The notes under the pieces: model-generated
Databases searched by the model: none
The model's input: only the letters and a program-made list of their open reading frames with translations
What the model was told of the DNA's origin: nothing
In this document: positions 7,708-30,824 of the stretch, piece by piece
How the letters are laid out: the number at the start of each line of letters is the position of its first letter
Position numbering within the stretch: position 1 is the stretch's first letter
DNA from: a virus
Length of the DNA stretch: 30,824 nucleotides
IMG/VR virus record: IMGVR_UViG_3300025127_000151
Location: 1-30,824 of that record
Reading direction: 5' to 3' (one strand)
Translations under genes and position numbers: made by a program

Positions 7708-7719
7708 TATTTATTTATT
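7708..7719 (-). promoter_or_regulatory. Late-promoter-like motif before the glutaredoxin gene
   Basis: Two overlapping copies of AATAAATA on the minus strand at the stop codon of the carbamoyltransferase, about 20 bases before the glutaredoxin start. They fit a relaxed NATAAATA consensus and the spacing seen at other late sites here, but the run is simple AT-rich DNA. Confidence 0.35.
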
Positions 7720-9396
7720 TTTAGTAATTAAGAAATTGTTAATTACGAGGAAATCCAAATCTATCTTATTAAAGGTATCAACAGCATCTTTTGGTGTTTC
7801 AATAATTGGTTGTCCATTGTCATTGAATGATGTATTCAATAGCACAGGAGTCTTTGTAACTTCATTGTATTTCTGTAATAGTGTTGTAACCTCTGGATGC
7901 AAGTCTTTGTTAACTGTCTGTATCCGACAACTAAAATCTCTATGTGTAATTGCACCAAGTTTTCTTCTTTGATGTGGTCTAACTATTAATGAATACAACA
8001 TATACTCATTTGGATATGTGTCCATAAAATAATCTTCCTGATACTCTTCGAGCATAATACCTGCAAAAGGTCTCCATTCTTCACGGTGCTTGATGCGTGT
8101 ATTAATCATCTCTTTATTTTTTGATGGAGTTGGATTCATGAGTATTGACCTTGAACCTAATGCTCTTGGTCCAAACTCTGACCTATTCTGAAACCATCCT
8201 ACAATTTTATTGTCCGCAAGATGTTTTGCAACAACTTCACATAGTTCATTAAAATCATCGTATTTTTTATACTTTGTATCTACAAGTGCTTCTTCAACCT
8301 CAGTATTATCGTATGTTTTACCAAGAAGAGATATATTATGTGGTAGTTTAACTACCTCTTTACTCTTGAATAATCCAAGAGCAGCAGCACCAAATGATAG
8401 TCCAGTATCATCTGGAAATGGTGGTATATGAATATTTTCTGTAATTTTATTCTTACGAAGCACAGAGTTGGCAAGTATATTTAAGAACACTCCACCAGCA
8501 AGACAAAGATTATCATTAATATATTCCTTTTCCTTCAGTTCTTTCATGTATTCAAGCATCGCATTCTCAAAGTTGTGTTGAAGTTGCTTTGCTTTATTCT
8601 CAGGTGTGAGATTACCATAGTTGAAATCACGACCAGGAAAAGATTCGAGTGCAACCTGTGGTATGCCTTCAAAATGAGTTCTATAATCTTTCTTAAACTC
8701 TTTGGTGTTACCATAGGCAGAAAGACCCATCACCTTACCACAAAATGTCTCACGATATTTTGGATCTGTAAGTTGAATATCTTTACCGATCTTATTGACG
8801 TAGATATGATATGCCCACATCCAATAGTAATTACCGAAGTTATTTGTCTGAGGTATGCCTGGATAATATTTGAATAAACCTTTCTTCTTATTAAAGTATC
8901 CAAAAGAATGATTCTCACAGGCAAATATTTGTCCTGTTGTGTCAAACAAAACTGACCCTGCATTATCTAATGTGACAAATGAACCTTCATTATAGTCACA
9001 AGAGAACACAGAGGAATAAGCATGACACATGTGATGTGACGCGATTTCAACCTTTGCTTTTGGGAAATATCTTTTAACTTTCTTTTCAAGTGTCTTATTA
9101 ATATAATTCTTATAGAATTGTTGATTTGCCATTGATGGAACAATCACTAAATCAATATCATTCTTGTCTAAGTTTGCAGCAGATAAACAATATTCAATAG
9201 ACTTTCTTGGAAAATTACCATCATACTTGATACCACTCAATCTCTCTTCACTGATGCTGACACAATGTTCTCCATCCTTGATGAGAGTTACACTTGCACC
9301 ATGTGTCCAAGAGTCCTCTGATTGTTTTAGTAACTTAGGGTTGTCAGATATTAAAACATTCCAACCAATCGCACCATAAAGTCCAATTACATTCAT
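7711..9396 (-). CDS. Carbamoyltransferase, NodU/CmcH/TobZ type
   Basis: The 561-residue protein has both domains of O-carbamoyltransferases. The Kae1-like N-terminal domain shows EERLSGIKYDGNFP (50-63), the metal-binding HHMCH (His121, 122, 125) and LAGGVFLN (299-306). The YrdC-like C-terminal domain shows GWFQNRSEFGPRALGSRSI (400-418), WRPFAG (441-446) and NTSFNDNGQPI. Such enzymes use carbamoyl phosphate and ATP to carbamoylate hydroxyls of sugars or other small molecules. Homologues occur in marine T4-like phages; substrate unknown. The start overlaps the glycosyltransferase stop (ATGA), which suggests they act on one glycan. No key residue is missing. Confidence 0.92.
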   Translation of the reverse strand: MNVIGLYGAIGWNVLISDNPKLLKQSEDSWTHGASVTLIKDGEHCVSISEERLSGIKYDGNFPRKSIEYCLSAANLDKNDIDLVIVPSMANQQFYKNYINKTLEKKVKRYFPKAKVEIASHHMCHAYSSVFSCDYNEGSFVTLDNAGSVLFDTTGQIFACENHSFGYFNKKKGLFKYYPGIPQTNNFGNYYWMWAYHIYVNKIGKDIQLTDPKYRETFCGKVMGLSAYGNTKEFKKDYRTHFEGIPQVALESFPGRDFNYGNLTPENKAKQLQHNFENAMLEYMKELKEKEYINDNLCLAGGVFLNILANSVLRKNKITENIHIPPFPDDTGLSFGAAALGLFKSKEVVKLPHNISLLGKTYDNTEVEEALVDTKYKKYDDFNELCEVVAKHLADNKIVGWFQNRSEFGPRALGSRSILMNPTPSKNKEMINTRIKHREEWRPFAGIMLEEYQEDYFMDTYPNEYMLYSLIVRPHQRRKLGAITHRDFSCRIQTVNKDLHPEVTTLLQKYNEVTKTPVLLNTSFNDNGQPIIETPKDAVDTFNKIDLDFLVINNFLITKNK

Positions 9397-10298
9397 GATT
9401 CTTTGTCAACTGCCTCTACAATTTTATCAAAGTCAAATATATCATCATCCTCATCTACATATGGATACTCTGCTTCCTGACCAGTAAAGTCAAAGTCAAA
9501 TAATACACTATTGGGTAACTTACATTTAGCAGGTTTCTTTGCCTGTATATTTGTATGCATGTCCCATCCAAATACAATTGGACTTGTGCCATTCCACAAT
9601 ACAACTGATGGCATCTTTAATGCTGCTGCAGCATGTTGCATACAACTATCAATTAATATTCTTTTTTCACTATGTAATAGAAGACTTACCAACTCCATGT
9701 TTGTCATTGGATCTTTAATTGCTTCTACACCATCTAAAATTTCACATGAAGGTCTTGTAACTTGGAAGATATGATAATCGTCTGCGTAATGATCTACAAG
9801 TTTTTGTGCTAGAACCACAGGCATATCTCTTGCCCATAGATATGGTCTTTGTTCCTGATACATACCACCATTGGTTTGTATCACCATAATTGGTTTTCCA
9901 TTTGCTCGACTTGGCCAAAATTCTCTCGCACCTTTTCTCTGTAGTGGATTGAATTTTATTTGTGGCATCTCACCATTATAATCAAGATTGTACATCTTGC
10001 ACCAAGATTGAACCAATGGAAGTTTTTTATTTACATGATCGGTTGTAAAATATGGTTCATTCGCAAAGATTAATGAATCCATACCTTCAACATAAGTTTG
10101 ATAATAATAACTTGTATTTCCCATTTGATACACACGATCAATAAAGGGAAGGTTTTGGAATATTTCAATCCAAACACCACATACGATTAACTCTCGACTT
10201 GGAAAGTTATTCTTTATACATTTCGCAACTGCTGTTGATGCAACGTGTTTTCCAAACCCACCTTGTACATGGAACAAAGAATATTTTTTTTGTGACAT
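9393..10298 (-). CDS. Glycosyltransferase family 9-like protein
   Basis: The 301-residue protein has the GT9 (ADP-heptose:LPS heptosyltransferase-like) pattern: an N-terminal HVQGGFGKHVASTAVAKC (10-27) that recalls the GxGD start, a VIQTNGG strand at the domain junction, and the C-terminal donor-site block MELVSLLLHSEKRILIDS, then QHAAAALKMPSVVLW and GTSP (Asp217, His222, 237-240). The acidic tail (EDDDIFDFD) is unusual. GT9 enzymes add sugars to lipopolysaccharide; in a phage it may alter host surface glycans or decorate a virion protein. It precedes the carbamoyltransferase with a four-base overlap. Confidence 0.8.
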   Translation of the reverse strand: MSQKKYSLFHVQGGFGKHVASTAVAKCIKNNFPSRELIVCGVWIEIFQNLPFIDRVYQMGNTSYYYQTYVEGMDSLIFANEPYFTTDHVNKKLPLVQSWCKMYNLDYNGEMPQIKFNPLQRKGAREFWPSRANGKPIMVIQTNGGMYQEQRPYLWARDMPVVLAQKLVDHYADDYHIFQVTRPSCEILDGVEAIKDPMTNMELVSLLLHSEKRILIDSCMQHAAAALKMPSVVLWNGTSPIVFGWDMHTNIQAKKPAKCKLPNSVLFDFDFTGQEAEYPYVDEDDDIFDFDKIVEAVDKES

Positions 10299-10320
10299 AA
10301 TGAAGAATTAGATTATGTAA

Positions 10321-10662
10321 TTACCAAGGAAGTGCTTTATCTACTTCTGCTGGTGCTGGAGGATTCTTAACAGATTCAATCCATGCCTCATGATTGACTT
10401 TTGTATTTGATGAAGCAAGACCATCTTTAACTGTAGTCCAATTTAAAATTGTATCTTGAGTCAAACTAGCGTATGCAACAAATCCTGATGCACCTGTGCC
10501 ACCACTTGTATCTACTTGAAATGATTCCTCATTATCAATAGTGAGTGTAGATGGATCAGAGTCATCAACTGATACTGTTTTTACAGTCACTTCTGAAACA
10601 ATGTTATCAGAGGTATTTAAGATTGTCAATGATGATACTGTTTGTGTATGTGTAATTGCCAT
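10321..10662 (-). CDS. DUF7936-like small protein
   Basis: The 113-residue product starts MAITHTQTVSSLTILN, is Ser/Thr-rich with alternating hydrophobic residues typical of a beta sandwich, and ends in a Pro-rich tail with PxxxKALPW. This start and the PLPW-like end match DUF7936, small proteins found near structural genes of tailed phages; role unknown. A CATAAATA late-like motif precedes it, so unlike its neighbours it may be made late. No signal peptide or membrane segment is visible. Confidence 0.68.
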   Translation of the reverse strand: MAITHTQTVSSLTILNTSDNIVSEVTVKTVSVDDSDPSTLTIDNEESFQVDTSGGTGASGFVAYASLTQDTILNWTTVKDGLASSNTKVNHEAWIESVKNPPAPAEVDKALPW

Positions 10663-10684
10663 TTTAAAATTTTACTTTATGTTA

Positions 10685-10692
10685 TATTTATG
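10685..10692 (-). promoter_or_regulatory. Late-promoter-like motif before the DUF7936 gene
   Basis: CATAAATA on the minus strand overlaps the TAA stop of the sulfotransferase and lies 23 bases before the 10662 start, the same arrangement as the TATAAATA at 5215-5222. Confidence 0.5.
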
Positions 10693-11599
10693 AAAATAAA
10701 TTGTAATTGTTTGGTTTAGTTTTTGGGGGTGGTACCTTTTGTGGTTTAATTGAAACCACTTCCGGAGTTGACCAAAACTCTAATCTTTGTCTATTGTTAT
10801 TATATAGTTCAATTATAGAGGGTGGAAGAATCGCACTAGGATGTGTGGATTTCTTCTTGAATTCGGAACGCACCTCGTGCATATCACGCAAACCATAAGT
10901 CGCAAGATCATCTTCACGATGAGGATTTTCTAGATTATTAAATGAATGTTCAAACGATTCCTCACCTAAAAATTGATATATTTTATCTAACTCACCTTGT
11001 GGATCACTCATTAAGTCATTATAATCCACGAAGTGAAATTTATCCCTATGCCCTTCTTGAAAACCCAACATGATTGCATTTAAAGAATCATAAAGAATAC
11101 CACCATCACCTAAAAGAAGTTGACAACGATTCTCATCATTGAGTGGAGAATCACGTTTAATTAACATTTCATCTAAAAAATTAACTCTTGGTTGTCCTTC
11201 TTCATAGGGATTACGATGAATCATAGTGAGAAATGATGCTAAAATCTCATCTACTTTTCTTACTGGAACGATAATTTTAGTTTCCTCTGGTTTAATATAC
11301 CCTTCTATAAAAGGCACTCTCGCACACCAAGCACGATTCTTATCAATCACAATTGGTTTTTTTACATCAGAATACCATCCATCTATAATTGAACCTACAA
11401 TTTTATTTGCACAATCTGGTTTTGGAAATCCAATGTACAATTCATTATTCAAAAAATGATCATGAGCAGTATACATCGCTCCAAGCACAGGACTTGAAGG
11501 ACCAGAATGTAGATTTGGATTCTGATTTAATAATGTTGAAAGAAGTGTACTTCCTGCTCTCGGAAGACCTGACATAAAATAATATTTTTTCTTATTCAT
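10688..11599 (-). CDS. Sulfotransferase family protein
   Basis: The 303-residue protein starts with a strand and the 5'-phosphosulfate loop GLPRAGSTLLSTLL (11-24), the PAPS-binding signature, and has a 3'-phosphate-type segment IIVPVRKVDEILASFL (109-124). The C-terminal half is helical with a Pro/Lys-rich tail. Sulfotransferases move sulfate from PAPS to a hydroxyl or amine of a glycan, protein or small molecule. Related genes are frequent in marine T4-like phages, with unknown acceptors. It is first in the unit driven by the promoter at 11621-11649, with a 15-base leader and no Shine-Dalgarno. With the glycosyltransferase and carbamoyltransferase it suggests glycan modification. Confidence 0.85.
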   Translation of the reverse strand: MNKKKYYFMSGLPRAGSTLLSTLLNQNPNLHSGPSSPVLGAMYTAHDHFLNNELYIGFPKPDCANKIVGSIIDGWYSDVKKPIVIDKNRAWCARVPFIEGYIKPEETKIIVPVRKVDEILASFLTMIHRNPYEEGQPRVNFLDEMLIKRDSPLNDENRCQLLLGDGGILYDSLNAIMLGFQEGHRDKFHFVDYNDLMSDPQGELDKIYQFLGEESFEHSFNNLENPHREDDLATYGLRDMHEVRSEFKKKSTHPSAILPPSIIELYNNNRQRLEFWSTPEVVSIKPQKVPPPKTKPNNYNLFS

Positions 11600-11620: not shown

Positions 11621-11649
11621 ATTATATATCACATTCCGAAGAATGTCAA
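11621..11649 (-). promoter_or_regulatory. Perfect-consensus sigma70 promoter for the surface-chemistry unit
   Basis: TTGACA (11649-11644), exactly 17 bases, TATAAT (11626-11621): both hexamers are perfect. The -35 box overlaps the stop codon of the preceding tail gene, and the spacer holds most of a UUCG hairpin. It would start transcription about 15 bases before the sulfotransferase ATG. Confidence 0.85.
11631..11646 (-). other. C(UUCG)G tetraloop hairpin at the end of the tail gene array
   Basis: Minus strand ACATTC-TTCG-GAATGT forms a 6-bp stem closed by a C-G pair over a UUCG loop, an exceptionally stable RNA motif. It begins in the stop codon of the 11646-12110 gene. T4 is known to carry such CUUCGG hairpins between genes. 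No T-run follows, so it may stabilise the 3' end of the tail transcript, or terminate weakly. Confidence 0.65.
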
Positions 11650-12110
11650 TCTATCTTTGCCATCGCAAAATGACTATTAGTGCCAATCAATTGACAAGTG
11701 CCTGTATCTGCCTCTCTCTGAAATCCAAGATTTACTTGTTGACCAGATGTTAAGTAAGCAATTTGTTGATTACCCACAGAACTATTTCGATGTGAATCGT
11801 GATCACGAATATATCCATGAGCACCGATTGAAGTAGGTATCCCCGATATTAAAGCGGTAACCAATACATTTTCTCTATCTGCACTAGAGAACATATAACA
11901 ATTATAACATATCAAATAGAGTCCGTTTACAGGTACAGTAATACCGTTTGCTTGATTTACAATAAATCCCCCATTATTGAAATCAGTTGATGTGTTTACA
12001 CAATTATATGTTGCAAATGTGGTTGAAGCGTTAACATTGGATACATCGAGTAAAGATGTTGATACACAATATAATTGTCTTGTTATGTCGTCGGTGATTA
12101 ATTTTCCCAT
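11646..12110 (-). CDS. C1q-like tail protein (154 aa)
   Basis: The product shows the C1q/TNF-like jelly-roll pattern: FNNGGFIVNQANGITVPVNGLYLICYNCYM, later IPTSIGAHGYIRDHDSHRNSS and the final strand SHFAMAKID. Such folds trimerise and are used by phages and bacteria as receptor-binding tips. An upstream extension to 12215 is open but would run into the preceding gene, and its Lys/Leu/Cys-rich sequence does not resemble the siblings, so I chose Met at 12110. It is the last of three neighbouring paralogues (with 12115-12624 and 12626-13198) and of the nine-gene tail array. Confidence 0.65.
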   Translation of the reverse strand: MGKLITDDITRQLYCVSTSLLDVSNVNASTTFATYNCVNTSTDFNNGGFIVNQANGITVPVNGLYLICYNCYMFSSADRENVLVTALISGIPTSIGAHGYIRDHDSHRNSSVGNQQIAYLTSGQQVNLGFQREADTGTCQLIGTNSHFAMAKID

Positions 12111-12114
12111 AATT

Positions 12115-12624
12115 TCACTGTAATTTAAACATATACATAATAGAATTTTGCATAATTTCAACTCCTTGAGCCGAGTCTGCACTACGTCTTGTTTGAATTT
12201 TAATTTTATCAACACCTAGTTGAACGATTTGAGTAATCATAGAAGATGAATTTCTTGAACCACTATATCCAGAACTATTTAAATTACGACAATATCCCAT
12301 CGCAGCGATTGATCCACCACCAGTCAAAACAGCATCTTGAGTGTGATTATAAAATCTCATTTCTGGACATGTACGATCATTTGTATCATTAGCTTGCTCT
12401 GATCGATAGTATAATGAGGCACCAATCACATAAAACCCTGCAGATGGAACTGTGATGCCATTTTCATCTATCGTAAATCCACCATTGTTAAAGTGAACTA
12501 AAGAGGTGTTAATGCATGTTCGATTAGTAAATGATGTATTAGTTCCTATATCATCTGCATTTTTCATTGATACTTGAACAGAAATGACATCTCTTTGAAT
12601 AGTGCTTGCGTTAATTGTGCTCAT
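12115..12624 (-). CDS. C1q-like tail protein (169 aa)
   Basis: It starts MSTINASTIQRDVISVQ, like the other array members, then shows the C1q-like block FNNGGFTIDENGITVPSAGFYVIGASLYYRS, an AAMGYCRNLNSS segment that matches GAHGYIRDHDS in its neighbour, and an aromatic last strand (MYMFKLQ). Probably a trimeric virion protein at a fibre tip or baseplate. It lies one base from the upstream gene and four from the downstream one, so the three are one operon. Confidence 0.68.
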   Translation of the reverse strand: MSTINASTIQRDVISVQVSMKNADDIGTNTSFTNRTCINTSLVHFNNGGFTIDENGITVPSAGFYVIGASLYYRSEQANDTNDRTCPEMRFYNHTQDAVLTGGGSIAAMGYCRNLNSSGYSGSRNSSSMITQIVQLGVDKIKIQTRRSADSAQGVEIMQNSIMYMFKLQ

Positions 12625-12625
12625 T

Positions 12626-13198
12626 TTAAAATAACTTTGCTAATGAAAAGTGAGAACGATCTCCTGTGCACTCTGTCGTTCCATCATTCCCTCCTAGTGC
12701 TTCACATGCTAATCCCACTATAGCACCCTTATTAAGTTGCATTAACCTTGATTGAATATTAGAGGATGTAGTATGACTTGATGCATTACGAATATAACAC
12801 ATTGCAGATTTTATTCCTCCAACTCCTTCTGGAAATCCGGTTCCAGAACCATGCGCATCATCATGAGTCAAGGTAAACATACAGGCATTTCTAAATCTGG
12901 TGGATGACCATGATCCATCATTAGTTAACACCATATTAAACATCGCTAGATATATACCAGCTACCGGCACCTTGACTCCACTCCAACCCTGAACTGTATT
13001 TCCAAGATTCTCATCTTTAAATCCTCCTGCCACAATTTGAAATCCACCTATGTTTATATCATTCGCTGTTTGCCTATTAAATAAAAAAGGCATCGAAACC
13101 TGGTCATTTTTACCTTCATTGTTTGGATTAAACTGATCACCCATTGAAGTCTGAAAGTAGTATACATTTGTTGAAATTGAATTTGCGATTACAGACAT
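12626..13198 (-). CDS. C1q-like tail protein (190 aa)
   Basis: The first of the three C1q-like paralogues in transcription order. It has INIGGFQIVAGGF, GVKVPVAGIYLAMFNMVL, then KSAMCYIRNASSHTTSS and a final SHFSLAKLF strand that matches SHFAMAKID in the 11646-12110 protein. Loops are longer than in the siblings, with a Gly-rich HGSGTGFPEGVGG insertion. Start and upstream stop overlap as TAATG. A receptor-binding or virion-decorating role is inferred from the fold and position. Confidence 0.68.
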   Translation of the reverse strand: MSVIANSISTNVYYFQTSMGDQFNPNNEGKNDQVSMPFLFNRQTANDINIGGFQIVAGGFKDENLGNTVQGWSGVKVPVAGIYLAMFNMVLTNDGSWSSTRFRNACMFTLTHDDAHGSGTGFPEGVGGIKSAMCYIRNASSHTTSSNIQSRLMQLNKGAIVGLACEALGGNDGTTECTGDRSHFSLAKLF

Positions 13199-16367: not shown

Positions 16368-19300
16368 TCAAACAACGGTAAATGTCGACCCATCACCAAT
16401 AGTGAGGGTAACACCGGTGTTTATGGTATACGGACCGTACACACCGCCATTGACTGCAGCACCTCCATCAGCAGGGAATGACTCACTCGTATCAAGTGCT
16501 GTTGGGTTCTGGAAGAAGCGAGATGCATGAACTGAACCCTCAACATGAAGTTCTGCTCTAGGTGATGTTATATTTGAGGAAATACCAACTTTGAAAGAAC
16601 TATTACCCGTGATCCAACGATCTGTTCCATTACCAATGACAAGTTGGCAACTACCAGTTGCTGATGCTAATTCTACATTATAACCAATCGCAACGTTTGC
16701 ATCTCCTGTTGTATTTGTATTACCCGCACAGAATCCTAAAAATGTGTTTTTACTACCGTCATTAAGTAAACCAGCCTGTGCTCCTACAAAAACATTATCA
16801 CATCCAGCAGCACCACTGCCCTTTCCAGCACATGTACCTATAACGACGTTGCAAGCTGAATTACTAGCCATGAGCAGAGCCGCCTCGTATCCCATAACAA
16901 CGTTATAATGTCCAGTTGTAACACTTAAAAGAGATCGTGTTCCAATAGAAACTGAACATGCTCCAGTTTGAATCTGTCCACCTGCATTATCACCAACAAA
17001 AACATTACAGGTAGCACTTGTTATACATTTTCCAGAATTACATCCAATCGCAATATTATTAGAACCAGTGGTGGTGCTACAATCACCGAGTGCATTAGAT
17101 CCAATCGCAATATTCTCAGTACCAGAACTTATTTTACCTGCCTTTCGACCTATCGCAATATTACATGAACCACTTGTTACTTCTTTACCAGCACACTTTC
17201 CAATTGCTATGTTAGTAGCTCCTGCACAAACACCACAAAGAGCTGAATCACCTAATGCAACATTATCACTTCCAGTGACATACCCCTGACCACCCATTGC
17301 CCTAGTGCCAATTGCAGTGTTGCAATTTCCTGTGGTGTTACAAACACCAGTATAATGTCCCAAGAATGTATTTTTACTACCACTTGTTATATTAATTCCT
17401 GAACAATCACCTATAGTAGTGTTATATCCACCAGTAGAATTACCTTGAGAAACACTTTTTCCTCCTGCAGGATTACCAATAGCAACGTTTCTAACACCTG
17501 AGGTAATACATCTTCCAGCATATCTTCCTATGAGTACATTACAACCAGATGTTGTTTCTTTTCCTGCTCCTTGTCCAATCATGACATTGAAACTACCACT
17601 TGCATTAGATGATCCTGCAAAACATCCAAGTATTACATTATTATCACCTGCATTTATTTCACAACCAGATGCTTTTCCAATCATAATGTTGAAGCAAGTG
17701 TCAGAGTCTTTCGCTGCACCAGCATCAGTTCCTGCAACTAAGTTCTCTTGATCGTCTGGTGAGAATCCAGCAAGTCCACTTAAATTAGAACCATCACCAT
17801 AAAGTTGATAGGCAGATACAATACCGACTGATAACTTACTTGTAAGTCCAGCTCCAACTGCATCATCAGGTTTTGTGGTGTCAATACCAACATTAACACA
17901 ACCCCCATTACAGCAACCAACTAAGAAAAATATTTCAGGACCAGATCCTGATAGACCACCAGCACCTATTGCTAATTGATCTGAACCATCTAAAACAGGA
18001 GCATTTATATTACATCCAATTACAATATTACGTTGTCCATCGGTTTGATCATGACCTGCTCCACATCCAACGTAAACATTAAAGCAGTGTGAACTAGAGG
18101 TGGAAGTACATCCTGCCATGTGACCAATAAATGTATTCGAATTACCACCACAATTCTTTTGACCAGCATATACACCTAGGAAAACATTATTTTGACCAGA
18201 GGTATTATTACATCCCGCGTCAGGACCTACAAATACATTATTAAATCCAGTGTTCTTTGCATTAGCACCTTTTCCTGCTCTATGACCTATGAACACACCT
18301 GCACTACTTGGTGATGCACAACATCCTGCTTCATTACCTATGAAAACGTTGTTAGAACAAGCACATAACCGATGACCTGCACAATTTCCTAACGCAATAT
18401 TATTACTTCCAGTTGATGAATATCGACCTGCGTATTTACCAATAAAAACGTTACAACCACCAGTGGTCACAACTCTACCAGCACCAAAACCCATCATGAC
18501 GTTTGCAGGACCAGTGCAAACTGAACATCCAGCTACAAATCCAAGAGCCACATTATTACTACCAGATGTTATTTTTGTACCAGCATAGAATCCCAAGAAG
18601 ACATTTCGAGAAGCATCAAGTCCCTCACATCCTGCATTTGAACCAATGTATATGTTTTGTTCTCCACTCGTGGTTTTCTTACCTGCACAGGCACCTAAGA
18701 AAACGTTAAAGCAACCATTAGTTCCATTAAGATCACATCCAGAACAGGTGTTAGATGCCATTAAGTTTAGGTCAGCATCGGCACTAAATCCACCAGCACT
18801 AAGACCAGTTAAGTTTGATCCATCACCATAGAATGCTGTTGCACTTACAATACCAGTGGCACCGTATACAGTCGCAATACCAGCAAGAGTTGTATTAAAT
18901 GAACTGTCACCAGTTATCCAACGATTTGTTCCACATCCAATTGCAAATGTAGTAGATGTGCTTGAGGATGCCACATCCATCTGAGATCCAATGAGAATAT
19001 TACAATCCCCAGTGGTCAATGTATGTGCAAGATTATCACCGATTATGATGTTTCTAACACCTGAAGTTACAGCACAACCAGCTTTATATCCAATATGTAT
19101 GGCACATGTCGCATCTGTGGTATCATTACCAGCGTACGCACCCACGAAGACACCACCTGTTTTTGTTCCACCACCATGTCCTGCTCTAAATCCAATTGCA
19201 GTGACCTGATTACCCTCAGAATTATGACCTGAAGCACATCCTATGAATACAGATTGAGAAGAACTATCAGTATATTTTCCTGCTCCACCACCTAAGAATG

Positions 19301-22300
19301 TATTACCAGCACCATCAGTAAGTTTTGGACCAGCATCCATACCCATGATAACATTACAACCACCTGATGTTAGTTTACAACCTGCTTTACACCCAATAGC
19401 AATATTAAAATCACCAGTCACCGTGCCACAATGCATAGCGTAAGCACCAAGTGCGATATTATGAGTTCCAGTTGATAACCTTGAACCAGCCAACTTACCT
19501 ATCAAAGTATTACATTCACCAGAAGACATACAGAAACCTGCATAGGATCCTATAGCAGTATTACTGCGACCAGTATTAGATGATGCGGTAGTACCACCCT
19601 TAAGTGCATTGTGTCCAATTGCAACACTATTTTCAGTGGTGCACATGTCTTTTCCAGCATAATTACCTATAAAGGCATTATTATAACCAGTTGTATTATC
19701 CTTTCCTGCATAAAGACCAATGAATGTATTTCTTGCTGCTGTAGTATTCTCACCTGCTCCAGGACCAATAAATACTTGCTTACCAAAACAACTAGTTAAA
19801 CTTTTACCCGCATTATCTCCTATGATAACATTTAAAAATGCTGAAGTCATAGAACAACCTGCATTGAAACCAATCGCAATATTTTTATCACCCTCATTCA
19901 ACGCTGCACCAGCATTACAACCAAGTAGTATGTTGCAACAAGTATCAGAATCAATTGCTGCACCAGCACCAGTACCAGCAACTAAGTTTCCTTGAGAGTC
20001 TTGTGAGAATCCACCACCACCAGAGATACCAGTTAAGTTTGATCCATCACCATAAAGTTGATAGGCAGATAGAATACCAACACTTAACTTAGCAGTGTTA
20101 CCAGCACCAACTGGAGCATTTGGATTTGTGGTTCCAATACCAACATTGAAGTCAGAGTTACCAGTTATCCAACGATCTGTTCCATTACCAATTGCAAGTT
20201 GCAAATTATCATTTGCTGATGGTAGTTCTACATCATAACCTATTGCAATATTACAACATCCAGTTGTATTTGTATTACCAGCTTGTGAACCAAGGAAAGT
20301 ATTTTTACCACCAGTGATATTACAACATCCAGTACGATTACCAATGAAAGTATTGTGGGATGCATTATTACAAGCTGGTGTATTTGTTCCTATACCTGAA
20401 CAAGAACCAAGATATACGTTATAACTACCAAATTTTACAAAATTACCAGCATGCTTTCCTATTACAGTATTGGCATCACCTTGTGACCAATGCCTAGCAG
20501 TACAATCACCCATGAAGATATTGAAGTCGGCACTACAACCAAATTGTCCTAGACATCTTCCAACTAAATTTCCAATTCCAATATTTTTATTACCAACACT
20601 ACAGCAAGAACCACCTGCATTTACACCGATATAGACATTTCGATCACCAGTATCTATTCCACATCCAGCTTGACAACCAATTAAAATATTACGATCACCA
20701 GAAAGAGAAAACTTGCAACCAGCATTATAACCTATCGCAATGTTAAATGTAGCATTAGCGTCTGACGCTGCACCAGCGTTAGTTCCAGCATATAAGTTTT
20801 CTTGTGCGTCTGGTGAGAATCCACCACCAGAGATACCAGTTAAGTTTGATCCATCACCATAAAGTTTATAGGCAGACACAATACCAACAGATAACTTAGT
20901 TGTAAGTCCAGCTCCAACTACATTATCAGGATTTGTTGTTCCGATACCAACATGAGCACAACCACCACTACAACATCCATAGATCCAATAAATCTCATTT
21001 AGTCCTCCAAATGTGCCATACCCACCAGTAAATGCTATCTGATCAGAAGTGGATGATCTTGGAAGATATGCACCACAACCAATCGCAATATTTCTTTGCC
21101 CTGTGACTTGTTTCTTTCCTGCACCACATCCAATATAAGTATTGTAACAATGACTATTATCAGTAGAACAAGCACCAGCAGCTCTACCTACGAATGTGTT
21201 TGCATCACCACCTCTATTTTCTCTTCCTGAGTAATCTCCTACAAAAACATTATCATCTCCGTTAGTATTGCAACATCCTGCACGAGCACCTAAGAAGGTA
21301 TTTCTACCTCCTGATGATCCACTTGAACTACCTTTACCTGCTCTGTATCCCATAGCAATATTGTATTGCGCAGTTATTTGTCTACATAATGCCTCAAAAC
21401 CAAATGCAGCATTATTAATTCCCGAACCATTATGTTTTCCTGCATCAGTTCCAACAAAAGCATTGCAACTCCCGCTACACAAACAAAGTCCTGCATTACA
21501 TCCAATCGCAATATTGTCAGTACCAGTAACAACACCACAACCCAGTGCATTAAGACCTAAAGCAATATTTTTACTACCTGTTGATAAACAATATCCTGCA
21601 CATTCACCTATGATGATATTTTCATCACCAGAAGTAATTTTATTACCAGCCTGCCTTCCTATAATTACATTAGAATCACCAGTAAAATCTGCACCGCCAT
21701 TACTTGCAACTCTATCACCCAATAATATGTTATTAACACCAGTGGATAAACAAGCACCTCCCGAATACCCACCAAGAACAATGTTACAACTACCAGATGT
21801 TAAAGATACTGCACCATTTTTACCAAATACAAAATTATAACTACCCGTTGTTGCTGCATTTGCTGCTACATTATTACCTATGAAAGCATTATGATTACCA
21901 CTGGTTAGTTTAAGAGCTGCTTGACAACCTATTGCGATATTATTTCCACCCGTAACATCGCATGACCCCATAGATAACTTACCAAATGCAATGTTATAAT
22001 TACCACTAGTGCTCTTACAACCTGCACATTTACCTATGAAAACATTATCATCACCTGCATTTAATGACATACCAGCATTACAACCCAGTAATACATTGAA
22101 ACAAGTATCAGAATCAATTGCTGCACCAGCACCACCACCAGCAACTAAGTTTCCTGTAGAGTCTTGTGAGAATCCACCTAATGAACTACCATCTGCCTTG
22201 GCAAAGTTTGCTGCGGTGACAATTCCAGTTACATGCACATTACCAGTTGCATTGTAGAAAGTTGCAATACCAGCAATCGTTGATTCTATCTTATTAAATC

Positions 22301-25300
22301 CTACACATTGACCAGAAATATAATCAAGACATGCAAGACCTATTGCTAATCTACCACTATCTGATCCTGACCAGCACATTCCTGCACATTTTCCGATCGC
22401 GATATTTGTTGAACCTGTCGTGGTGCATTTACCAGCATACTGTCCAAGGAATAAATTACATCCACCTTCTGTGAGTGCACCTGCTGCTGAGTTTCCAAAC
22501 ACCATATTATGGGTACCACTCGTTATATTAAACGCTGGCATGTCTCCGACGAGAGTATTATTTGCACCACTTGTAAGTGATCTACCCGCATATCTTCCTA
22601 AGAATACGTTTCTACCACCAGGTTCGGTTCCTGAACCTCCAGCAGCACAATGACCAATGAAGATATTATCACAACAACCATCTGTTATACCTAATCCTAC
22701 ATTTTTTCCTATAAATATACTTCTATTTGATGTTAATACACCACCACCTGCACAACAACCGATAAATATACCATCATCAACTTCCTCTTGATCAGAAAAA
22801 CCACCCTTTAACGCTTCATAACCAATTGCGATAGTCGCTGTTCCTCTACAGAATAATCTACCTGCCTCAGATCCCATGAATATATTACCACTAAATGATC
22901 TATTACATTCACCTGCCTTCTTACCAATCATTATATTATTATCAACGTTTAATATTGATGATCCAGCACAGAAACCAAACAAAAGATTATAGTTACCAGA
23001 TGTGATTGCCTTTCCTGCACCCACACCGATAGCAAAATTTCGATCACCTGAATTTAGTGCTTTAAGTGCATCATTACCTATACCAATGTTAAAGCATGTA
23101 TCAGCATCGGAAGCTGCACCAGCATCAGTACCAGCATATAAGTTTTCTTGTGCGTCTGGTGAGAATCCACCAGCACTAATACCAGTTAAACAAGAACCAT
23201 CACCGCAGAACTTATGGGCAATGACACAACTGGTTGTGCCAGAGGTCATTGTGACTCCAACACCGGCTAAACATACGTTATAAGAACTATCACCAATAAT
23301 CCAACGATTTGTACCACAACCAATTGCTAATTGTGTATCACCAGTGGCAGATGCAAGTTGAACACATTGACCAATTGCAATATTACTATCACCACTTGTA
23401 ATAGTGCAACCAGCACGATGACTCAAAAATACGTTACCAGTTCCTGATGTTATACATTTTCCTGATTCTTTTCCGATAAAAATATTAGCACCACCAGAAG
23501 TAATACACCTTCCTGAATATGAACCAATTGCAATATTACCACCACCAGTATTACTTGTTGTGGTTGATGAACCTACTAATGCACGGTTTCCCAAAGCAAT
23601 ACTACCATCTGGAGTGATCATACAAGATAGTGCTCTCTCTCCAATAGCAATGCTATGACTATTATTGCAATTCATCTTCGCAGCATAATTTCCAGCAAAG
23701 AAATTATGAGTTCCAGTGCATGTATTCTGACCAGCTTTTCTACCAAATGCTATATTACATCCTAGACCTTTCATCGATTCTAGAGATCCACAACCGATGG
23801 CAACACTGAAGCACCCTGTTTCTGCACTTGCACCAGCACCCCTACCAATGAAAACATTAGCGAGAGCAGAACTTGTTGTTAAACATCTACCTGCATAACA
23901 TCCAATTAATACGTTTTGAGTTCCAGATGTAAGGTCACGACCAGATTTGAATCCAAATGCAATATTATAGTTACCAGTAATAATGCCGCTACCCATCGCA
24001 CATCGACCAATCGCAAGGTTTGTATTTCCAGAGGTCAGATTTTTTCCTGTGCAATGTCCTAACATTATATTACAATTAGCTGAAGTAGCTGTCTTTGCCG
24101 CATACTGACCCAAGAAGATATTATCATGTCCAGTTAATACACCAGTTGCAACTACCTTTCTACCAATAATAACGTTACAATTTCCTGTTGAAAGACAATC
24201 AGCATTACAAGCACCAATAACAGTATTACAACATCCAGAAGTAATACGACGTGCATTTTGTTGACCAATAAATACGTTCTGCTCACCTGTTACATCATTT
24301 ACAGTAGCATTTTCAAAACCTATAGCGACATTATAATCAGAACCTGTTGCATCTTCTAAATTTCCAGTACCCATGGCAACATTTCTTTTACCAGTTGTCA
24401 TTTGGAAACCAGAACCAGTACCCATTAAAATATTTGAAGATCCTGATGTTAGACAAAGACCTGACATTCTACCAAATGCAATGTTATAGTTTCCAGAGGC
24501 ATTCACACCAATATAACATCCCATGAATATATTTCCTACAGCACCATTTAAGTTATATCCTGAACAGAATCCCATCACAATGTTCTTATCTGTTCCAACT
24601 CCTGCAGTGACACCTGAACCAAATCCGGCAAATAAGTTACATCTTGAGTCTGCTGAGAATCCAGGAAGATTAGATAAGCAAGAACCATCACCACAGAATT
24701 TAGTAGCACTTACGATACCAGTAGCACTGTATACAGTTGCAATACCAGCAAGAGTTGTATTGAATGAACTGTCACCAGCAACCCAACGACTTGCTCCACA
24801 ACCGATTGCTAATTGGTCATCACCTGAAGCACTTGGTAAACAAACATCTCTACCAAGTGCAATATTACGACCACCAGTTGTGTTTGATCGACCAGCACCA
24901 CATCCAAGGAATAAATTATGACTTCCACTCTCGTTTATTTTTCCAGCACAAGATCCAAGAGCAATATTATGATTTCCTGTATTTTGATTAAGAGTGACTT
25001 CACCCATTCCAATATTATTATTACCTGAAACCGTACAACAACCAGTTAACGTTCCCATAAATATATTATCACTACCAGTTGTCATATTGCGACCTGTCAA
25101 TTTACCCAAGAGGATGTTAGCATCTCCACAAGTCATATTCCTACCAGCACAATTACCTAACATTATGTTAAAATGTGCTCCTGTTCCAAATGTCAAGTCA
25201 AGATTACATCCAGCACAAGTGCCAAGCGTGAATATATTACACTTTGCGTCTACCTTGGTTCCAACACTAATAGCAATAGTTGCGATTCCTGCTGCACCAC

Positions 25301-26348
25301 TTGATGCTGTGACAGTTACTCCTGTTGAGTCATCAAAATCAAGAGTGGAAATACTCCCTGCAGTTCCTACTGTAGATCCACCTTGGTCTTTAACAGTCAG
25401 ACCTCCAATTGCACCAACACCATCAGCAGTAATTCCAGTTAAGTTAGAACCGTCAATTGCTGGTAATGTGCCACTTAGTTGACCAGCAGGTAAACTGGTT
25501 AAATTTGCACCACTTCCGGAGAATGTAGTTGCAGTTACAACACCAGAAACTTTTGCATCACCAATCAAGTGAAGTTTTGATGAAGGAACCGTTGTACCAA
25601 TACCAACGAGTTCACCTGCACCAAAAGGAGCAAGTTGAATTGTACCATCAGCATTGACATCAATGCTCGGCATACCACTTATATCATTTACTGCAAATAT
25701 CGAACCTGATGATAAACTATTTGTGACTGTGAATAATTGCCCTTCACTTCCTTCTATATTCAATGCAGTTACGGAAGAACCAACATTGACATCTAATTGT
25801 GCAATCGGATTTGTTGTACCAATTCCAACCTTTGATAGTGTATGAATACCTACGTCTGTTTGTACAAATAAACCTCCAGATATACCAGTCAATGCAGAAC
25901 CGTCAATTGCAGGAAGTGTACCTGTCAAATTACCTGCAGTTAGATTTGTTAAGTTTGCACCACTGATTGCAGGAAGTGTACCTGTCAAATTACCAGCAGT
26001 TAGATTTGTTAAGTTTGCACCACTGATTGCAGGAAGTGCTCCAGTTAAATTACTTGCAGCAAGTGAACCATCAAATGAAGTTGCACTTACAACACCAACT
26101 ACGTTTAATCCACCACCTGTTATTCTTACATCATCCGTAAATGTTGTGATTCCAACTACGTTTAATCCACCTGCTGTTATTCTGACTCCCTGACCCGCTG
26201 TTATTATTCCTACTGAATCTATATTAGTTACGTCTTCATAAGTTAATGTACCACCAATCGTGACGTTTCCTGTGAATGTCGCCGCTGCACCGCTTACTAT
26301 ATTTCTACTATCGTCAATGATAGTAGAGCCTGATATCTTAATTGCCAT
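16368..26348 (-). CDS. Giant modular Cys-rich fibre/adhesin with YadA-head-like repeats (3,326 aa)
   Basis: This gene fills almost a third of the window. Residues 1 to about 365 are a beta-rich N-terminal region of the cyanophage fibre type (TFTGNVTIGGTLTYED, then repeats of AGNLTGTLPAISGANLTNLT and VGIGTT). From about 367 to 3,249 I count about 143 short repeats of the form NIAIGxxAGxxxTSG, as in left-handed beta-roll heads of YadA-type adhesins. They fall into eight modules, each opening near GFSxDxxxNLxAG and most closing with QLAIGxGTxRWIxGDSSFN and GDGSNLTG. The C-terminus is a short beta tip (GVTLTIGDGSTFTVV) with no S74 chaperone. Cys is frequent: 11 of about 155 residues in module 1. 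No signal peptide. Probably a trimeric virion fibre for host attachment. Confidence 0.8.
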   Translation of the reverse strand: MAIKISGSTIIDDSRNIVSGAAATFTGNVTIGGTLTYEDVTNIDSVGIITAGQGVRITAGGLNVVGITTFTDDVRITGGGLNVVGVVSATSFDGSLAASNLTGALPAISGANLTNLTAGNLTGTLPAISGANLTNLTAGNLTGTLPAIDGSALTGISGGLFVQTDVGIHTLSKVGIGTTNPIAQLDVNVGSSVTALNIEGSEGQLFTVTNSLSSGSIFAVNDISGMPSIDVNADGTIQLAPFGAGELVGIGTTVPSSKLHLIGDAKVSGVVTATTFSGSGANLTSLPAGQLSGTLPAIDGSNLTGITADGVGAIGGLTVKDQGGSTVGTAGSISTLDFDDSTGVTVTASSGAAGIATIAISVGTKVDAKCNIFTLGTCAGCNLDLTFGTGAHFNIMLGNCAGRNMTCGDANILLGKLTGRNMTTGSDNIFMGTLTGCCTVSGNNNIGMGEVTLNQNTGNHNIALGSCAGKINESGSHNLFLGCGAGRSNTTGGRNIALGRDVCLPSASGDDQLAIGCGASRWVAGDSSFNTTLAGIATVYSATGIVSATKFCGDGSCLSNLPGFSADSRCNLFAGFGSGVTAGVGTDKNIVMGFCSGYNLNGAVGNIFMGCYIGVNASGNYNIAFGRMSGLCLTSGSSNILMGTGSGFQMTTGKRNVAMGTGNLEDATGSDYNVAIGFENATVNDVTGEQNVFIGQQNARRITSGCCNTVIGACNADCLSTGNCNVIIGRKVVATGVLTGHDNIFLGQYAAKTATSANCNIMLGHCTGKNLTSGNTNLAIGRCAMGSGIITGNYNIAFGFKSGRDLTSGTQNVLIGCYAGRCLTTSSALANVFIGRGAGASAETGCFSVAIGCGSLESMKGLGCNIAFGRKAGQNTCTGTHNFFAGNYAAKMNCNNSHSIAIGERALSCMITPDGSIALGNRALVGSSTTTSNTGGGNIAIGSYSGRCITSGGANIFIGKESGKCITSGTGNVFLSHRAGCTITSGDSNIAIGQCVQLASATGDTQLAIGCGTNRWIIGDSSYNVCLAGVGVTMTSGTTSCVIAHKFCGDGSCLTGISAGGFSPDAQENLYAGTDAGAASDADTCFNIGIGNDALKALNSGDRNFAIGVGAGKAITSGNYNLLFGFCAGSSILNVDNNIMIGKKAGECNRSFSGNIFMGSEAGRLFCRGTATIAIGYEALKGGFSDQEEVDDGIFIGCCAGGGVLTSNRSIFIGKNVGLGITDGCCDNIFIGHCAAGGSGTEPGGRNVFLGRYAGRSLTSGANNTLVGDMPAFNITSGTHNMVFGNSAAGALTEGGCNLFLGQYAGKCTTTGSTNIAIGKCAGMCWSGSDSGRLAIGLACLDYISGQCVGFNKIESTIAGIATFYNATGNVHVTGIVTAANFAKADGSSLGGFSQDSTGNLVAGGGAGAAIDSDTCFNVLLGCNAGMSLNAGDDNVFIGKCAGCKSTSGNYNIAFGKLSMGSCDVTGGNNIAIGCQAALKLTSGNHNAFIGNNVAANAATTGSYNFVFGKNGAVSLTSGSCNIVLGGYSGGACLSTGVNNILLGDRVASNGGADFTGDSNVIIGRQAGNKITSGDENIIIGECAGYCLSTGSKNIALGLNALGCGVVTGTDNIAIGCNAGLCLCSGSCNAFVGTDAGKHNGSGINNAAFGFEALCRQITAQYNIAMGYRAGKGSSSGSSGGRNTFLGARAGCCNTNGDDNVFVGDYSGRENRGGDANTFVGRAAGACSTDNSHCYNTYIGCGAGKKQVTGQRNIAIGCGAYLPRSSTSDQIAFTGGYGTFGGLNEIYWIYGCCSGGCAHVGIGTTNPDNVVGAGLTTKLSVGIVSAYKLYGDGSNLTGISGGGFSPDAQENLYAGTNAGAASDANATFNIAIGYNAGCKFSLSGDRNILIGCQAGCGIDTGDRNVYIGVNAGGSCCSVGNKNIGIGNLVGRCLGQFGCSADFNIFMGDCTARHWSQGDANTVIGKHAGNFVKFGSYNVYLGSCSGIGTNTPACNNASHNTFIGNRTGCCNITGGKNTFLGSQAGNTNTTGCCNIAIGYDVELPSANDNLQLAIGNGTDRWITGNSDFNVGIGTTNPNAPVGAGNTAKLSVGILSAYQLYGDGSNLTGISGGGGFSQDSQGNLVAGTGAGAAIDSDTCCNILLGCNAGAALNEGDKNIAIGFNAGCSMTSAFLNVIIGDNAGKSLTSCFGKQVFIGPGAGENTTAARNTFIGLYAGKDNTTGYNNAFIGNYAGKDMCTTENSVAIGHNALKGGTTASSNTGRSNTAIGSYAGFCMSSGECNTLIGKLAGSRLSTGTHNIALGAYAMHCGTVTGDFNIAIGCKAGCKLTSGGCNVIMGMDAGPKLTDGAGNTFLGGGAGKYTDSSSQSVFIGCASGHNSEGNQVTAIGFRAGHGGGTKTGGVFVGAYAGNDTTDATCAIHIGYKAGCAVTSGVRNIIIGDNLAHTLTTGDCNILIGSQMDVASSSTSTTFAIGCGTNRWITGDSSFNTTLAGIATVYGATGIVSATAFYGDGSNLTGLSAGGFSADADLNLMASNTCSGCDLNGTNGCFNVFLGACAGKKTTSGEQNIYIGSNAGCEGLDASRNVFLGFYAGTKITSGSNNVALGFVAGCSVCTGPANVMMGFGAGRVVTTGGCNVFIGKYAGRYSSTGSNNIALGNCAGHRLCACSNNVFIGNEAGCCASPSSAGVFIGHRAGKGANAKNTGFNNVFVGPDAGCNNTSGQNNVFLGVYAGQKNCGGNSNTFIGHMAGCTSTSSSHCFNVYVGCGAGHDQTDGQRNIVIGCNINAPVLDGSDQLAIGAGGLSGSGPEIFFLVGCCNGGCVNVGIDTTKPDDAVGAGLTSKLSVGIVSAYQLYGDGSNLSGLAGFSPDDQENLVAGTDAGAAKDSDTCFNIMIGKASGCEINAGDNNVILGCFAGSSNASGSFNVMIGQGAGKETTSGCNVLIGRYAGRCITSGVRNVAIGNPAGGKSVSQGNSTGGYNTTIGDCSGINITSGSKNTFLGHYTGVCNTTGNCNTAIGTRAMGGQGYVTGSDNVALGDSALCGVCAGATNIAIGKCAGKEVTSGSCNIAIGRKAGKISSGTENIAIGSNALGDCSTTTGSNNIAIGCNSGKCITSATCNVFVGDNAGGQIQTGACSVSIGTRSLLSVTTGHYNVVMGYEAALLMASNSACNVVIGTCAGKGSGAAGCDNVFVGAQAGLLNDGSKNTFLGFCAGNTNTTGDANVAIGYNVELASATGSCQLVIGNGTDRWITGNSSFKVGISSNITSPRAELHVEGSVHASRFFQNPTALDTSESFPADGGAAVNGGVYGPYTINTGVTLTIGDGSTFTVV
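16600..25250 (-). repeat. Eight-module coding repeat region of the giant fibre gene
   Basis: Module limits, in transcription order, are about 25250-24663, 24662-23169, 23168-22176, 22175-20823, 20822-20013, 20012-18793, 18792-17769 and 17768-16600, with about 9, 26, 16, 21, 12, 21, 16 and 22 short repeats. Connectors are of two kinds: one with GDSSFNTTLAGIATVY (modules 1 and 6, variant in 2) and one with VGAGLTxKLSVGIVSAYQLYGDGSNL (4, 5, 7); module 3 is irregular. Connector DNA is similar between modules, for example near 17790, 20040 and 20845. Confidence 0.75.
25911..26030 (-). repeat. Two tandem 60-bp repeats in the giant fibre N-terminal region
   Basis: Units 25911-25970 and 25971-26030 differ at a single base and encode 20 residues each around NLTGTLPAISGANLTNL. 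A diverged third copy begins at 26031. Near-identity at the DNA level suggests recent duplication or homogenisation. Confidence 0.85.
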
Positions 26349-28751: not shown

Positions 28752-30824
28752 TCATTCTAATTTAGATATACGCTCATTCAAGGTATCAATTTGCTTCTGT
28801 TGATCTTTCACAACTTCAATCAAGAGTCCAACTAAACCATTATAATTTACAGTCTTTGGATCATCTCCATGAACAAGTTGTGGTAATATCTTCTCAACCT
28901 GATCGGCGATCACACCAAGTGCTGGTCTATCATCTTTCTTCCAGTTGAATGATACACCTTCAATCTGTATGACTTTAGCAATTGGATCATCGATTGGTTG
29001 AATATTAGTCTTCAATCTAATGTCAGAAGTTGCATCAAAGTCAGTTGCAGTTACGACACCTGAGATAATTGCATCACCAGTGACGTGTAGTTTTGATGTA
29101 GGAGTTGTAATACCAATACCAACTCTACCTGTTGATGTGATTCGAAGTCTTTCTGTTGGAATTGCTGACCCATCTGCCGAAGTCTTGAATACAAGTGCTC
29201 CAGGCATATCAGATGATCCTGGAGTACCATCAACTTCAGTAAGAATTTGAGCAGCATTTCTGAAATCTGATCCATCCCATCCATTGAATACAATTGATCC
29301 TATTACATCATTATCCTGAACAATGCTTGGTGATCCATGAGCACCTCTTGCTTTTTGTAAAAATAATCTTGAAGAGACAGCGTTATTTGAAAATAAACCT
29401 AATGCAAGAGAAGCTTCAGTATTATCTTCTAATTGAATGTTAGGTACTACAGTATCGTTATCTTGTCTAGTTGCTCTTCCAGTTATATCCATTCCAAAAA
29501 GGAACTTGCCCGTAGTTCCATTAATTCTGAACCTTTCGTGTCCCCCACCTTCAAATACAATTTGATCAGCGGCTGGAAAACTCATGAAAGTATTTGTATC
29601 TCCAGTATGAACTATCTTATCAGCAATTGAAAGATCTCCAGTGAATGTTGAAACACCAGATACATTTAATTGTTTTGATATTAATGTCCCATCAGAATGT
29701 GCGGTTGAGACCCCTGCAAGAGTAACATTAAAGGAACTATCACCAGCAATCCAACGACCTGTTCCACAACCGATTGCTAACTGATCATCGCCAGTTGCTG
29801 AAGGTAGTTCAACATTATCACCAATCGCGATGTTTCTGGATCCTGAGGTGTTTGTATTACCTGCTAATCTTCCTAAGAAGATGTTACAACCACCTGAGGT
29901 TAAATCACAACCTGCTTGAATACCTAAGGTTATATTACAACTACCAGTTGCACCACAAGTTTTTGGACCTGAACAAGCACCGATGTATATGTTAGCACCA
30001 CCTGATGTGTTACCATATCCTGCCCTACGTCCAAGTGCGATGTTGCAGTTACCATTTACGGTGCATGCACCAGCTTGATAACCACCAAGGAATATATTTT
30101 GTACACCAGTAAATATTTTTGCACCAGCAGCATATCCAATTGCAATATTACACTGAGAAGTTCCGCCACAGGTCTGTCCACCAGCATGATTACCAATGTA
30201 AACATTTGCATGTCCGTAGGTGTCTCCAATACCAGCACCTCTACCAATTGCGATGGTGCAAGTACCATTGATATTACATTGACCAGATAATGCACCCATA
30301 TAAATGAGTGATAGACCAGTGCTGGTTTGAGAACCTGAACATTGACCTATCATTATATTTGTGCCACCCCTACTTGAACCAGTTCCATCAGCCAGTGCGC
30401 CACCAAGATTACATCCAGCAAGAGGACCAATTGCAATGTTTATACCACTTCCTCCCTTATTTCCTGCCTGATGACCTATGAATACATTACATCTACAAGT
30501 TCCTGTCAAACATCCTGTCTGATTACCAATGGCTATGTTATTACAACCTGAGGTAATACATCTTCCAGAACTTTGACCTAATGCAATGTTAGTTACAGCT
30601 GTGGTAGAGCATTTCATCGCACTATTCATGATGGCAATATTACTACCACCAGAAATAATTCCCTCACCTGCTTGATTTCCTAAGAAAACATTATGACTGG
30701 AGGTAGATCCAGATAATCCTGCACATCTTCCTATTACAACGTTGTGTGACGCACTCGAATTAACATTACCCGAATTTAAAGCACGTCCCGCAGCACAACC
30801 TATGGCAACATTATGACTACCTTT
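28752..30824 (-). CDS. Fibre protein with YadA-head-like repeats and C-terminal peptidase S74 chaperone (5' end outside window)
   Basis: The frame is open to the right edge, so the gene starts outside; an internal Met at 30629 is not the start because the repeats run on upstream. The 690 visible residues hold about 20 NIAIGxxAG repeats, closing with QLAIGCGTGRWIAGDSSFN as in the giant. Then come a beta region (FEGGGHERFRINGTTGKFLFG, RLRITSTGRVGIGITTP) and the S74 domain from about residue 599. Its Ser600-Asp601 in TSDIRLKTNI is the expected self-cleavage site. GVIADQVEKILPQLV follows, ending in a coiled coil. S74 domains fold trimeric fibres and then cut themselves off. Confidence 0.85.
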   Translation of the reverse strand, partial: KGSHNVAIGCAAGRALNSGNVNSSASHNVVIGRCAGLSGSTSSHNVFLGNQAGEGIISGGSNIAIMNSAMKCSTTAVTNIALGQSSGRCITSGCNNIAIGNQTGCLTGTCRCNVFIGHQAGNKGGSGINIAIGPLAGCNLGGALADGTGSSRGGTNIMIGQCSGSQTSTGLSLIYMGALSGQCNINGTCTIAIGRGAGIGDTYGHANVYIGNHAGGQTCGGTSQCNIAIGYAAGAKIFTGVQNIFLGGYQAGACTVNGNCNIALGRRAGYGNTSGGANIYIGACSGPKTCGATGSCNITLGIQAGCDLTSGGCNIFLGRLAGNTNTSGSRNIAIGDNVELPSATGDDQLAIGCGTGRWIAGDSSFNVTLAGVSTAHSDGTLISKQLNVSGVSTFTGDLSIADKIVHTGDTNTFMSFPAADQIVFEGGGHERFRINGTTGKFLFGMDITGRATRQDNDTVVPNIQLEDNTEASLALGLFSNNAVSSRLFLQKARGAHGSPSIVQDNDVIGSIVFNGWDGSDFRNAAQILTEVDGTPGSSDMPGALVFKTSADGSAIPTERLRITSTGRVGIGITTPTSKLHVTGDAIISGVVTATDFDATSDIRLKTNIQPIDDPIAKVIQIEGVSFNWKKDDRPALGVIADQVEKILPQLVHGDDPKTVNYNGLVGLLIEVVKDQQKQIDTLNERISKLE

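Follow-up and report, generated by a model that had tools for sequence, protein, structure and literature searches.

A giant modular repeat protein, probably a mosaic host-recognition fibre, in a Kyanoviridae-like phage

How phages of ocean cyanobacteria keep up with changes in the surfaces of their hosts is an open question. The locus described here bears on it through one gene, a complete open reading frame (ATG to stop, minus strand, 26348→16368) that encodes a protein of 3,326 aa. What does so large a protein do, and how does it vary between related phages? The window that we analysed is the entire 30,824-base virus record, which is a fragment. Matches to the flanking genes come from phages of Prochlorococcus and Synechococcus and from the single-cell virus MH319754, which is assigned to the Kyanoviridae, and by these matches the source virus is a Kyanoviridae-like phage, a relative of viruses of ocean cyanobacteria. 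A megablast search of phage records with the whole gene gave 0 matches, and no RNA families were found within the window.

Repeat units and modules of the giant protein

The repeat unit comprises 17 residues, NI(A/F)IGxxAGxxxTSGxx, with a modal spacing of 17 aa, and its consensus accepts almost any residue at the variable positions. A profile parse identifies 133 full units in the protein; the same parse returns 1-9 units for each of 20 shuffled copies and 2 for the reversed sequence. This count leaves out 8 closing half-units (QLAIG... and variants) as well as degenerate units such as NIGMG at aa 444. When the half-units and the few degenerate units are added, the total reaches ~141-144, which bears out the figure of about 143 given in a preliminary description of this DNA. 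The eight modules of about 9 to 26 repeats listed there also agree with the 6-25 full units that we find per module (Table 1), once closing and degenerate units are included.

The same description proposed a common frame for the modules, and this layout is borne out. An opening motif, GF(S)xD...NLxAG/S, is present in seven of the eight modules (at aa 563, 1061, 1392, 1843, 2113, 2520 and 2861) and is lacking from module 1. Five modules carry a closing motif of the RWIxGDSSF type, and a variant (FLVGC) is found in a sixth. The linkers are conserved, recurring as direct DNA repeats within the gene with 80-83% identity. The interiors of the modules share a mean identity of 42.5% and are no closer to one another than to blocks of the corresponding protein in a sister phage (see below), which argues against recent tandem duplication as the origin of the modules. 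When module 7 was used as a search query, no relatives were recovered.

It was also suggested there that a beta-roll of this length would be a very long fibre, a view that we do not retain. Beta-solenoids rise by ~0.48 nm per coil, such that ~143 coils would extend over about 70 nm, an ordinary length for a fibre. Moreover, larger proteins exist: ORF101 of S-TIM4 is a structural protein of 6,603 aa, and 17-aa repeat ORFs on other viral contigs reach 4,734 aa and 202 units. Extreme length was therefore set aside as the main novelty. By a motif scan, several loci with very large 17-aa repeat ORFs (L207, L209, L215 and similar loci) have no closing caps.

Table 1. Features of the giant gene and of the surrounding island, in window coordinates
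Feature	Position	Strand	Remarks
Carbamoyltransferase, glycosyltransferase-like and sulfotransferase-like proteins	7711-11599	-	beside the fibre island
Two or three related fibre-tip-like proteins	11646-13198	-	one with weak TNF/C1q-type resemblance
Six small tandem proteins, 134-166 aa	13198-15848	-	five start like MS(T/I/K)L... or MSTI...
Two overlapping ORFs, 67 and 113 aa	15852-16332	-	directly after the giant gene; second matches PHROG 20196
Putative modular repeat fibre, whole gene	16368..26348	-	3,326 aa; matched by PHROG 4636 and PHROG 6002
Conserved C-terminal segment, aa 3225-3326	16371..16676	-	78% identical to sister phage; no Peptidase_S74
Module 8, aa 2861-3250	16599..17768	-	21 full units
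Module 7, aa 2520-2860	17769..18791	-	14 full units
Module 6, aa 2113-2519	18792..20012	-	20 full units; module used for structure prediction
Module 5, aa 1843-2112	20013..20822	-	11 full units
Module 4, aa 1392-1842	20823..22175	-	21 full units
Module 3, aa 1061-1391	22176..23168	-	15 full units
Module 2, aa 563-1060	23169..24662	-	25 full units
Mosaic block, ~aa 552-796	23960..24693	-	90.8% identity over 740 nt to L174 528-1267
Module 1, aa 372-562	24663..25235	-	6 full units; degenerate and closing units also present; junction at the end
Repeat-free N-terminal region, aa 1-371	25236..26348	-	aa 1-69 86% identical to sister phage; presumed virion attachment
Three lectin-like proteins of the LamG type (Laminin_G_3); one ORF of 80 aa	26390..28750	-	flanked by the two repeat-fibre genes
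Companion repeat fibre (690 aa or more; truncated at the window edge)	28752..30824	-	same 17-aa units, Peptidase_S74 C-terminus

Relation to phage fibres and to YadA heads

Several lines of evidence point to a virion fibre, as the preliminary description had suggested. In profile searches the giant protein matches PHROG 4636 (tail spike, E 1e-164) and PHROG 6002 (virion structural, E 1e-153). Its N-terminus is shared with proteins annotated as tail fibres in cultured cyanophages, and the gene resides in an island of putative fibre genes. Units of 17 aa are also found in podovirus tail spikes. In addition, a short run of such units closed by the same cap, QLVIGSGSGVWIRGDSSYNV, lies within Syn1_219, which is annotated as a virion structural protein; the structural names used in the Syn1 study are based on orthology and on proteomic data from virions of S-SM1, Syn9 and S-PM2 (PMC3037559). 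It is very unlikely, by comparison, that the protein acts off the virion, as a released or cell-surface adhesin or as a decoy during infection. Such a role would fit with the absence (by Pfam) of the Peptidase_S74 chaperone that many such fibres have and that the companion fibre carries. The N-terminus held in common with annotated tail fibres, the structural PHROG categories and the related repeat blocks in the tail spikes of podoviruses and of P-SSM2 all speak against it.

The closest comparisons include phage proteins that carry 17-residue units. The P-SSM2 protein PSSM2_298 (Q58M57; 1,094 aa), annotated as a tail spike or proximal tail fibre, has 31 units of the 17-residue NTAVGxxAL type by our parse and matches the predicted structure with an E value of 4.8e-10 in a viral library. 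Unlike the giant protein, however, it has one interrupted block, 1.1% Cys, an S74-like C-terminus and no framed multi-module array. Syn1_219 and gp073 of S-CAM4, each termed ‘virion structural protein’ in a cultured cyanophage, have a single small block within a different fibre of ~1,200 aa and 0.1-0.3% Cys. A similar modular build is seen in MH319754 (AG-345-L05), which was deposited without annotation, and in IMG/VR loci including L091, L098 and L176. Several of these giants have the N-terminus MAIKISGSTI in common and junction motifs recur among them, but block number, order and content differ from those of the source protein. The framed-module layout seems to be confined to such cyanophage-like relatives.

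Other fibres offer looser parallels. The lateral tail fibre pb1 of T5 is a trimeric fibre whose several subdomains are joined by rigid linkers (PMC12750041); apart from this rigidity, the build is like that proposed for the giant protein. For a structural repeat protein of a cyanophage, there is evidence that the repeats recombined with one another as the phage adapted to hosts (PMC6224464), but this protein lacks the 17-aa unit (1 unit by parse). Also lacking this unit is S-TIM4 ORF108, described in the literature as having a YadA domain, which was consequently rejected as a relative.

A single-chain AlphaFold model of module 6, computed with an alignment of 23 modules, forms a regular solenoid in which each coil has two short strands (unit positions 2-4 and 14-16), and its pLDDT values lie at ~85-96 over most of the module. 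The linker after module 6 falls below 50, and linkers overall are largely below 50-60. Linker confidence was again low in a second model, centred on the linker and built with its own alignment, and a PDB fold search with this junction model gave no matches. A confidently predicted solenoid within the module and linkers of low confidence support the earlier suggestion that the modules could be separate heads along a stalk.

The preliminary description had further likened the repeats to YadA heads, and this assignment is not supported as regards family membership. Pfam YadA_head matches neither the whole protein (E≤1) nor any of the eight modules searched individually (E≤10), no significant match was obtained in a PDB sequence search, and the unit has 17 residues whereas that of the YadA head has 14. 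A true trimeric autotransporter YadA head with a lengthened unit is thus a doubtful identification. In its favour, the strand-turn-strand logic is alike, in that the heads of YadA, BoaA and CbpF also place a short inner strand and a turn in each coil, with an adhesin-type role assumed, and one fold match in the viral library carries the annotation YadA-like head. CbpF (probability 0.69) and the YadA-like head of BoaA (0.47-0.54) also appear among the weak Foldseek matches to the PDB. Nonetheless, none of these PDB matches is significant (E ≥ 0.038), and left-handed beta-helix transferases score similarly. Foldseek against a viral library yields 78 proteins at E ≤ 1e-3, one of them the P-SSM2 tail spike. 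Sequence profile and anchoring differ as well: Pfam detects no C-terminal membrane anchor domain of the autotransporter kind, and the protein ends instead in a short segment that is conserved in the counterpart from the sister phage. The giant protein plausibly works like a YadA head, while sequence and unit length do not support membership of the family. With no related solved structure found, the repeats are a source of numerous natural solenoid blocks of 17-residue coils, many of which are rich in Cys.

Constant ends and replaced interiors

Comparison with relatives, which had been proposed as a check on whether module number and size vary, confirms that they do and reveals that module content is exchanged too. 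In the sister phage (the contig carrying L091/L171), flanking DNA is 85.5-87% identical to the window and the conserved flanking proteins are mostly 92-98% identical (94% for the carbamoyltransferase and 95% for the glutaredoxin-like protein). Exceptions are the sulfotransferase-like protein (67%) and the small fibre-like proteins beside the giant gene, which are largely replaced. The positional counterpart of the giant protein has 3,700 aa and likewise eight modules. Both ends are constant, with 86% identity over the first 69 aa and 78% over the last 102 aa. Between them, the block interiors have been replaced wholesale: modules of the same rank share a mean identity of 43.8% and mismatched pairs 41.9%, so that there is no positional correspondence. 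Moreover, an N-terminal piece of the window protein (aa 187-282) recurs in the central part of the sister protein (aa 2401-2496). A second pair of sisters, L095 and L101 (2,171 and 2,019 aa), behaves in the same manner, with 95% identity over the first 228 and last ~413 aa and a diverged middle.

Blocks are also shared between different phages. The first ~13 coils of module 2 match a different repeat protein, L174 (Table 1); protein identity starts abruptly at the opening of module 2 (aa 564) and fades inside the module. L091 and L101 have in common a block of ~190 aa (88% nt identity over a 180-aa core) that starts at an opening, behind different linkers, and a third block, interior and ~150 aa long (84% nt identity over the core), occurs in both L098 and L097. 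Two left breakpoints therefore fall at block openings. Linkers also recur between proteins, and the simplest reading is that the conserved linkers serve as recombination joints. We only infer this role, because two of the three clear shared blocks start at an opening and assembly artefacts are possible. The evidence for exchange comes from metagenomic contigs, any one of which may be a chimeric assembly, though three block pairs were found. Among the ORFs examined in the window, itself a fragment, no reverse transcriptase of a diversity-generating retroelement was recognised, and block replacement already accounts for the variation without such an element.

Cysteine content is a separate peculiarity. 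The giant protein contains 157 Cys (4.7%), compared with 1.4% for the other window proteins pooled. There is about one per coil, almost exclusively at the variable unit positions 6, 7, 10, 11, 13, 16 and 17. A disulfide ladder between neighbouring coils was rejected, as Cys residues stack 22 times against an expectation of 29.8 ± 4.6. Nor is the richness special to the source phage: units with ~5% Cys occur in many viral 17-aa repeat proteins, in a survey whose queries were themselves rich in Cys, and it is absent from other repeat proteins, for example those of S-B05 and CRP-1.

Gene neighbourhood and probable function

The genes around the giant gene include further candidates for surface recognition. 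Four of the five proteins scanned among the six small tandem ones match PHROG 11355, ‘tail fiber protein’, and the six resemble paralogous fibre tips arranged in tandem. One of the neighbouring fibre-tip-like proteins contains 4.2% Cys, and two of them overlap in the ORF list. The sister locus L091 has one related LamG copy, which is 38.9-43.3% identical to two of the window copies and 25.6% identical to the third. It is possible that the transferase genes at 7711-11599 modify glycans of the phage or the host. A frameshift, either natural or a sequencing error, may have divided a single protein into the two overlapping ORFs next to the giant gene.

Taken with the exchange of blocks, this setting leads us to regard the giant protein as probably a mosaic, hypervariable host-recognition fibre, or adhesin, of the Kyanoviridae-like phage. 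The constant N-terminus would anchor the fibre to the tail or baseplate, and the chain might trimerise as YadA heads do. The eight solenoid blocks would then form rod segments joined by linkers, with exposed loops at the variable positions binding glycans or proteins of the cell surface. Recombination through the conserved linkers and the repeats could replace blocks, giving rise to new binding surfaces and new lengths.

It is unlikely that the blocks are instead a passive spacer which only sets fibre length or decorates the virion, with divergence reflecting loose constraint. The tolerance of the consensus for nearly anything at its variable positions would suit a spacer, as would the variation of length and block number among relatives, and the receptor could be bound by the companion fibre and the LamG proteins. 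However, the interiors in the sister phage have been replaced as whole blocks and have not drifted, in a setting where flanking proteins and protein ends are largely conserved, and the gene lies amid putative receptor-binding and glycan-modifying genes. A more elaborate proposal is that the gene is an adhesin library in which linkers act as joints that deal blocks between phages, and in which the Cys-rich repeats have a chemical role beyond glycan binding, such as metal or thiol capture or cross-linking; this combination is less probable still.

As a mosaic host-recognition fibre, the protein is of interest mainly for its constant ends and swapped interiors, which make the idea testable, and not for its size. 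A single gene separates the parts that stay constant, its ends and linkers, from the block interiors that are swapped. If the linkers are indeed joints, they predict the sites at which recombination occurs.
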